From: Branchiostoma floridae
Taxonomy: Eukaryota > Chordata > Leptocardii > Amphioxiformes > Branchiostomatidae
Length of the DNA: 64,000 nucleotides
Direction of reading: 5' to 3'
NCBI RefSeq assembly: GCF_000003815.2
Contig: NC_049997.1
Coordinates: 16,666,502 to 16,730,501 of the forward strand
This document shows positions 5,301 through 10,258 of this stretch, one piece after another. Made by a program: the position numbers and the translations under genes. Position 1 is the first letter of the stretch, and each line of letters begins with the position of its first letter. Below the pieces are notes generated by a model. It ran no database searches, was not told the DNA's origin, and saw nothing but the letters and a program-made list of their open reading frames with translations.

Positions 5301-8300
5301 GCCAGAGGGGGGGGGGGTCACGGTATGGTAAGGACAGACTTGTATGCTTCGTCCGATCTCCTCGGCCCTTCTCACATGGAAGCATGTTGTATTGTCATGC
5401 ATGGGTGTGTGAGCACTTAAAGAGAAACCAATCAAGATAAACTGATATCTCAGCTAGCACACAATAGATGCACCAACAGAGAGTAACTGATAAAGAAGTA
5501 TGCCCTGATAACCCCAGGACAATAGACCTAATAAAATATACATATAGTGTCAGACTGAGTGTGTAAGGGTACACGGTTTGGATTACTAGTATTGTTCTGT
5601 TCGTTGGATCGGAGAAACCATAATGTGTATCATATACTATCAGTGTGGTCTTTATATCGTTTTTGTTTGTGTGTGTGTTTGCACGTATGTTTGTGTGTAT
5701 TTGTTTGTGTGTGTGTGTGTGTGTTTGTATGTGTGTGTGTATTTGTTTGTGTGTGCGTGTGCTTGTGTGTGTGTTTGTATGTGTGTGTGTGTGTGTGTGT
5801 GTGTGTGCATGTATGTGTGTATGTGTGTGTGTGTGTGTGTTTGTGTGTGTGTGTGTGAGTGAGTGTTAGTGTGTGTGTGTCCTTGTGTGTGTATGTCTTA
5901 GCATCACTGCGCATCTACAGATATAGTTTTTCATCCGTATGAAAAGCCGAGAGAGAGAGAGAGAGAGAGAGAGAGAATGTGTGTGTGTGTGTGTGAGTGT
6001 TTGTGTGTTTGTGTGTGAGTGTGTGTGTGTGTACGTGTGTGTGTGTGTGTTAACATCACTGCGCATCTACAGATATAGTTTTACATCCGTATGTGTAGAG
6101 TACAACTACACGTGTAACGCGATGTAGGTGTATCGAAATTTTTGTTATTCTCGATGTTGAATTGCCTCCTTCTCCCATGGGAGAAATGAACAATGGAACG
6201 AAAAGAAAGAAAGAAAGATCTTATCGATATACACCCAAGTGAGGTCATACATGTGATTACTTTTATAGGTACGCCCTTAACAATATTTACATATTACGTT
6301 CACACACACAACCTATATATTAGAAACAATGAAAGAACAACGTATTTTGAATCGTAAATATTATCAGTAAACGGTTGGTAGAAATGTTAAAGCAGATATT
6401 TATCTTTCTTTTAGTTTGTTGACGAACAAAGTGTATATTGGACTCACGCTATTTCCACCAGGTGAGGGAGTTAAATCCTGAATTTTGAATTTTTTCTAGC
6501 AAGGAATAGACGACTTAGACTTGAATGATGGGAAACCGCTGGTCCAACGGGGTCGACTCGGTGCCACTGACAGAGCTGAATTCGGTGCCACAGGTAAGGG
6601 CCACTTTATTTGACGTGCATTGGCCGTGCGTGCATGTGTGTATTGAAGTGTGTTTGTGTGTGTGTGTGTATGTGTGTTTGTCAGTGTGTGTGCTTGTGTG
6701 TGTGTGTGTGTGTGTGTGTGTGTGTGTGTGTGTGTGTGTGTAAAGGAGAGGGAGCAAGGAAGAGATTAATATATCATCTTTCTTGCAAACTCAAGCCCGA
6801 AGGCATGCAAAAATACACGTATGAAAGTACAATGATGATAATGATACTGAATGGTATACAATGACAAAGTGGACATTAAGTGAAAAAAAGTGTCATTAAC
6901 TAGAAAGTGATACTTCTAATCTACAATGAATGCTATTGGGTTTGATTTCTTTTCTGTATGCAGTGGACCGGGATGAAATTCCCGACATTTCATAGTATGC
7001 GGTTCCATATGTGTATGTGTATGTGTATGTGTATGTGTATGTGTATGTGTATGTGTATGTGTATGTGTATGTGTATGTGTATGTGTATGTGTATGTGTAT
7101 GTGTATGTGTATGTGTATGTGTATGTGTATGTATGTGTGTGTGTGTGTGTGTATGTGTGTGTGTGTGTGTGTGTGTGTGTGTGTGTGTGTGTGTGTGTGT
7201 GTGTGTGTGTGAGTGAGTTTGTGTGTGCCTTGTATGTGTGTGTGTGTGTGTGTGAGAGAGAGAGTGAAAGAGATAGAGAGAGTTGTGTATTGGTGTGTCA
7301 CGGTCTATGCCTGTGTGAGTGTGCAAGAGAATCATGGCTACAACAAGGTGGTGTTTCAGTTTTTTTTAAAAATTGACCTTGTTTTCAGAATGAGGCGATG
7401 ACGCTACAATTTTATGACAAAAAAGAAAGACGGATAAGGAATACGTTTTCACCGTTCAAGGGCTACCTTGACTAACACTACGCGAATGGACATCCCGGAG
7501 ATAGGGTGTTCCGGACTCCGAACTTGGGCACCAATGATGATGTAGTCGGTAAGGGGCAGTGCATATGACATGTTTTCATTTTTGTTAGGAGCATTGTTTA
7601 CTACGTATACTTTTAACTTGAATTTGTTTGTCTTGTTGGATTTCTGACCTAATTTGGCAACATTGAAATGCCTCGTTGGTGTCCATCTTACTAATAGGAA
7701 ACGAAGATATATACCCTCCTAGCGGTGATTAGATCGCATGTGACAATGAAACTCCTATATACTTAATGTTTTGACGGTAGGCCTCGTGTGTGGATGGATC
7801 TCCTCTACAAGCACAGAATCCGGATGCTGGGGAACACTATTAATGCGTTGCTTTGCTAATACCTCCTTTCCACTAGGACGGCACTTTCACGACATAGAAT
7901 CTGACAGATCGCTCAACGACACTTTGTGTGTTTTGGTTGTCTTCTGAGTCACAATTTTACGCTTTGTATGATATACCCAGTGTGAAATCGAAGGTTACCC
8001 ATATGCTATTTAGGTCGCAGTGAGAGCGCAGCTAGATTGCCGCCTAGTGGAAAGGGGGCTTTACGTTAGACAACTTTATTTACCAATTGAAAGTAACTTC
8101 AAGTTGGACTGATTTTCCTTCTGTACTTCATTGTCCAGGCACAGTGACAGTGTACTCTTACTCCAGTATACCATCTCGCGGAGGCGGCACCTATGTTGTA
8201 CTGCAATTTGAAGAGTCTGAAATGTACTTCGCCGCTAAGAGAGACAGACCGCGTGTACTTTGTGTAGAGGTAAGCTGCAACAATGAAATAAAAATACATT

Positions 8301-10258: not shown

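Follow-up and report, generated by a model that had tools for sequence, protein, structure and literature searches.

Does a lancelet encode a cytokine of the interleukin-1 (IL-1) kind? The question is raised by a gene on contig C19 of the Branchiostoma floridae assembly (513 Mb, 431 contigs), within a stretch of 64,000 nucleotides (C19:16666502-16730501, hereafter the window), for which a sequence-only reading had proposed four exons spliced in frame into an IL-1-like protein. According to a 2022 review, invertebrates have IL-1 receptors and no IL-1 ligands, the latter being dated to early vertebrates (PMC9020223). As set out below, the window gene belongs to an amphioxus family of small, probably leaderless, putative beta-trefoil proteins, and this family is probably homologous to the IL-1 superfamily.

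Three exons of the window gene, all on the forward strand, recur in other copies. Exon B (8139-8269, 131 nt, phase 1 to 0) encodes predicted strands 4-7 and has homologues in 14 other loci, being placed in 11 (119-137 nt long, with 128 nt in 6 of the 11) and also seen in L034, L035, and L036. Exon C (9592-9799, 208 nt, phase 0 to 1) encodes predicted strands 8-11, which is the part of IL-1 to which it was aligned in both versions of the 19-row profile-profile alignment described below, and has homologues in 16 other loci (12 in which it was placed, with two copies inside L022, plus L034, L035, L036, and a homologue on contig C7). Exon D (10125-10258) supplies predicted strand 12 (ALESQLFRLETV) and an acidic tail with a TGA at its end, and has counterparts in four of the 11 other loci scanned (L021, L025, L026, and L029). 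Given these counterparts of the flanking exons, the junctions 8269/9592 and 9799/10125 appear to be real gene features, as had been proposed. Together with an open segment at 6500-6593, exons B, C, and D have AG/GT borders and form a single open frame of 188 codons plus a stop; of this four-exon model, B, C, and D have homologues in the paralogues, and the first exon is unsupported. The F-x-S and LCVE stretches noted earlier are likewise present in the window, and the full IL-1 signature is absent.

The difficulty lies in the first exon. Upstream of exon B, the paralogues share a different exon, exon A (145-160 nt, phase 0 to 1), which is open in L021, L022, L024, L025, L027, L028, L030, and L031. 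The window has a counterpart at 7389-7548 (forward strand, phase 0 to 1; predicted strands 1-3), lying between 6500-6593 and exon B and homologous to the first beta-trefoil exon of the paralogues, so that the junction 6593/8139 is doubtful. This counterpart aligns with exon A of L021, L025, L027, L028, and L030, and both its acceptor and donor are intact; it contains one in-frame stop codon (TAA, 7473-7475). Because of this stop, the window gene has probably become a pseudogene recently or represents a null allele, broken in this haplotype, or else it is spliced around the TAA, which is possibly an assembly error. Long TG and TGTATG simple repeats lie around the gene (5640-6060, 6640-6740, and 7000-7260) and may disturb assembly and gene prediction. 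When exons A to D are joined and read by eye, twelve short hydrophobic stretches follow in beta-trefoil order, distributed 3, 4, 4, and 1 over the four exons; exons A, B, and C are all open in seven loci (L021, L022, L024, L025, L028, L030, and L031).

We also considered whether the window copy could be functional with 6500-6593 (forward strand, phase 0 to 1) standing in for exon A. The segment is open, its donor matches eight of nine consensus places, and its phase 1 end fits exon B; against this, a local search of the paralogue loci returned no match to it, its DNA occurs once genome-wide at the sensitivity of the search used, it has no in-frame start codon, and its use in place of exon A would cost the trefoil its first three strands. 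We regard this arrangement as quite improbable. Another candidate first exon, "..MDDIL..", was rejected, as it runs into a stop within ~10 codons in all four loci where it was seen and lies downstream of exon C in L032; this element looks like a dispersed repeat.

The family comprises at least 18 loci, of which 15 (the window's included) are on C19, with C17, C7, and the small contig C352 carrying a single locus apiece. This count is a lower bound by our own grouping, drawn from genome searches with the window protein and one paralogue and from local tblastn; exon borders were read by eye, and phases were imposed by script when exons were placed across loci. The C19 copies form a cluster of ~0.4 Mb (16.636 to 17.041 Mb), and the exon layout A-B-C(-D) recurs across the family. 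By the Nei-Gojobori method on exons B and C, dN/dS is 0.41 between the window and L021, its nearest tested paralogue, and 0.37-0.84 (below 1 throughout) in the 13 of 45 pairs listed, a range that fits protein-coding genes under moderate constraint. We did note a frameshift in exon A of L029 (oriented about 3440-3590, our own reading) and a stop codon in exon C of L034 (oriented 6016-6180), and these broken copies indicate a cluster that is turning over. Comparison of first exons across loci gave one credible pair, shared by L030 and L031 (on C19 and C17), which reads MG[SN]KLSH...PQ and ends in phase 0 before exon A (MGSKLSH on the reverse strand in L030, oriented 4104-4190; MGNKLSH in L031, oriented 4597-4659). 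In these two loci, the exon does not resemble a signal peptide by eye. The pattern MGxxxS agrees with the N-myristoylation consensus, and such a start would be unusual for a cytokine.

Elsewhere in the window, on the reverse strand, lie an intact single-exon cytochrome P450 frame (37467-39008, 514 codons; Pfam p450, E 2e-108), a fragment matching 2OG-Fe(II) oxygenase (59304-59699, E 1.8e-5) that is probably one exon of a gene, and a 175-codon open frame of repeated units (16071-16598; ...VVTCTGLTVYQW...) in which no Pfam family was found at E<=0.01.

By eye, the family resembles IL-1beta, IL-1Ra, IL-36, and IL-37 (PF00340) in its strand pattern, a long acidic loop before strand 8, and an F-x-S at strand 9, and resembles IL-18 in the stretch around strands 4-9. 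Direct family searches did not recover this likeness for the C19 members. An IL-1 profile search, offered earlier as a check, left the window protein without a Pfam IL1 match; as joined with 6500-6593, it returned no IL-1 in Pfam, NCBIfam, or PDB sequence searches. None of 13 aligned family members matched Pfam IL1, and when the genome was searched exon by exon, there was no hit at E<=0.001, a result that does not show absence. A profile of these 13 rows found no IL-1 or FGF in the PDB (best match a protease, E 0.06), and the best IL-1 sequence against the family profile reached E 0.33.

The comparison of profiles with profiles, a more sensitive method, gave a different picture. The 13 rows scored 26.6 (E 0.0021) or 30.0 (E 6e-4), depending on direction, against eight IL-1 proteins, with 400 column shuffles at or below 20.1, reversed alignments at 12.8 and 14.1, and FGF at 10.4. 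An alignment of 19 rows, in which L034b, L035, and L036 come from tblastn matches with unchecked splice borders, L022b and L022c consist of one exon each, and four rows have shortened tails, scored 31.6 (E 2.7e-4, 112 columns) or 25.2 (E 0.0032) against eight human IL-1 sequences, with 300 column shuffles at or below 17.7, reversed alignments at or below 13.4, and FGF at 10.9 and 11.6. When exons A-C of the C7 homologue replaced its exon B alone, the score rose to 36.6 (E 3.8e-5; FGF 12.9). FGF is the better control here, given that column shuffles destroy strand periodicity and FGF has the same fold. Single IL-1 sequences (E 0.031 to 0.45), IL-1/36/37 together without IL-18 and IL-33 (19.2, E 0.035), and IL-18 with IL-33 (17.4, E 0.061) all scored weakly against the family, so that the signal depends on pooling the entire IL-1 family. 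For scale, the known IL-1 and FGF profiles score 30.7 against each other (34 columns); by this score, the lancelet family and FGF are equally close to IL-1.

Could this resemblance have arisen by chance among strand-rich sequences? Among the C19 members tried, none had an IL-1 match of significance in HMMER, which speaks for chance; set against this, none of 700 column shuffles and none of 300 sequence shuffles reached the observed score, the intron columns and phases coincide with those of IL1B, and the C7 gene matches Pfam IL1 independently. We consider chance a very improbable explanation.

The evidence for an IL-1 relationship comes above all from the homologue on C7 (3.704-3.706 Mb), whose last exon carries the IL-1 core. 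Across 19 family rows, 17 of which cover the region, none has the full PROSITE PDOC00226 signature, and the core [FC]-x-S-[ASLV]-x2-P-x2-[FYLIV]-[LI] matches the C7 gene only. The P-x2 element belongs to the PROSITE core pattern; the pattern is printed without it in PMC7144542. In the C7 gene, the last exon reads GGSPVDNITSNVTNDGRVFFMTAVGSDLKFESAKFPGKFLTINNSSSKLELKSNGSTIESQYFRLHSI and then a stop, contains the core LKFESAKFPGKFL, and ends in TIESQYFRLHSI; it is 207 nt long, with no further intron. It thus shares with the IL-1 family both FESAxxPGxF and a single last exon up to the stop, that of IL1B being 213 nt. In 1486 six-frame fragments (109,810 residues), FESAKFPGKFL of the C7 gene is the sole match to the core pattern. 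The FES-PG-F core is described in PMC12108812 as universally conserved in seven IL-1 subgroups, and FESAKFPGKF is this core with K for W.

Searches with the C7 gene point the same way. Among 24,736 Pfam families, IL1 is the only one at E<=10 (E 0.011 and 0.015), at 15.4-15.9 bits and thus under the cut-off of 25. An IL-1 HMM search of the 1486 fragments and 14 spliced members ranked the C7 fragment first (17.1 bits, E 3e-4); its best 14 comprised nine spliced members, four family exons, and one unrelated window fragment, with 5 of the 14 spliced members ranking below. On its own, the C7 gene scored 31.3 against the IL-1 profile (300 sequence shuffles at or below 21.2; FGF 16.8). Used as a query against the genome at E<=5, the C7 protein gave seven matches, of which two are to itself and five are to exons, all in the C19 cluster. 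These five are individually weak (E 0.059 to 1.35), window exon B being among them (1.28); in the other direction, the window protein matched C7 exon B at E 0.77 genome-wide and at 2.7e-5 in a small local database (45% over 40 residues). Each link between C7 and C19 is weak taken singly; that all five should fall in 0.4 of 513 Mb is not. A PDB search with the C7 protein gave no IL-1 or FGF. Exon C of the C7 gene, predicted alone, folds into five strands (pLDDT 67.6, a modest confidence for a fragment); the model had no significant fold match and no IL-1 chain among the Foldseek and VIA-align matches listed, and as a fragment model it is evidence neither way. For exon A of the C7 gene, a local repeat offers several acceptors and with them several candidate starts.

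The introns provide a second line of comparison. IL1B has exons of 47, 52, 202, 165, 131, and 213 nt (sum 810), giving phases 2,0,1,1,0; its exon 6 (131 nt) is of the same size as window exon B. In the hhalign alignment, which is blind to introns, the codon split between exons A and B (L021 residue 53) pairs with IL1B V40, and the border between B and C, which follows L021 residue 95, coincides with IL1B E83|S84, so that the two family introns occupy the columns and carry the phases (1, 0) of the last two introns in IL1B, between strands 3/4 and 7/8. The same series of phases for IL-1beta is printed in PMC4880838. The lancelet genes do differ from the IL-1 family in several respects: their first domain exon starts in phase 0 rather than 1, no propeptide is known, the PG of the core is absent from C19 members, several of which carry an insert, and C19 genes in which exon D is known contain one more intron, of phase 1, that separates strands 11 and 12.

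The FGF family (PF00167) shows no profile similarity to the lancelet family. In this genome, three FGF genes (L046, L047, and L048) contain two candidate introns that match those of IL-1 and the lancelet family in phase and approximate position, with donors chosen by reading, a likeness that is a hint of one ancestral gene for FGF and IL-1. The introns therefore assign the family to an IL-1/FGF clan without separating IL-1 from FGF. These shared intron phases, the mutual resemblance of the IL-1 and FGF profiles, and the incomplete IL-1 signature of the C19 members would all suit a divergent FGF-type or other beta-trefoil family, tied to IL-1 only through that old clan rather than being an IL-1-type cytokine. 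IL-1 outscores FGF in the profile-profile comparisons, however, with scores of 25-37 against FGF values of 10.4-12.9 for the family (E 0.31-0.68) and 16.8 for the C7 gene, all within the shuffle range. Furthermore, Pfam FGF gave 20 exon matches genome-wide, which we group into eight loci, as many as the FGF genes that PMC9188755 ascribes to the chordate ancestor, and all of them lie outside the C19 cluster and away from the C7 homologue; the window protein, the 13 aligned members, and the C7 gene had no Pfam match to FGF; and the C7 gene carries FESAKFPGKFL. We therefore hold an FGF-type or other non-IL-1 trefoil identity to be improbable. Shared ancestry of IL-1, IL-18, IL-33, and FGF is itself disputed (PMC5861070); the intron phases and places common to IL-1, FGF, and the lancelet family speak for a common ancestor.

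The earlier assignment to the IL-1 family thus survives as a statement of probable homology, on profiles, introns, and the C7 core. Given that the family falls below the Pfam cut-off and lacks the full signature, we classify it as IL-1-like, with homology to the IL-1 superfamily, and not as a formal member. In our main reading, the C7 gene would keep the ancestral form, and the C19 copies, some of them broken, would be evolving fast as a group specific to this lineage. A bolder reading, to which we give a probability of roughly two in three, is that cephalochordates have a true IL-1 ligand, encoded on C7, and on C19 a large tandem array encoding derived cytokines of IL-1-like type.

The twelve strands would fold into the IL-1 trefoil. 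The likeliest mode of action is that of IL-1; for the C19 set, we judge this cytokine mechanism to be evenly balanced. In such a mechanism, the protein would be made in the cytosol without a signal peptide and retained there until the cell was injured or died through pore formation. It would then bind a receptor with Ig domains and a TIR tail, which would signal via MyD88 to NF-kappaB. GSDME pyroptosis (PMC10155998) and MyD88 signaling (PMC6043800) are described in amphioxus, and IL-1R-like genes are reported for invertebrates (PMC9020223). It may instead be that the C7 gene is a true IL-1 relative and that the C19 paralogues lost the cytokine role, acting intracellularly (e.g., myristoyl-anchored through MGxKLS) or as decoys. 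The missing PG, extra intron, and inserts of C19 members would suit such a loss, as would the MGSKLSH and MGNKLSH first exons and the broken copies (the window, L029, and L034); on the other hand, the genes have expanded in tandem, all 13 listed pairs have dN/dS below 1, and the twelve-stretch pattern is retained, all of which argues against it, and the MGxKLS exon was seen in two loci only. We find this loss of role rather unlikely.

Among the literature matches listed, covered by title and abstract opening with subscription papers and preprints outside the scope, there was no report of an amphioxus IL-1 ligand; PMC9020223 states that invertebrates have no known orthologue, and the word Branchiostoma is absent from PMC12108812. 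The family may have been reported elsewhere, and these loci may already have gene models from automatic annotation. If true, an IL-1-like family in a cephalochordate would place the origin of the ligand before the vertebrates, and the IL-1R-like receptors of invertebrates would gain candidate ligands. It would also bear on the question of common ancestry for IL-1, IL-18, IL-33, and FGF, and amphioxus would have its own IL-1 ligand repertoire alongside its expanded TIR-domain proteins.
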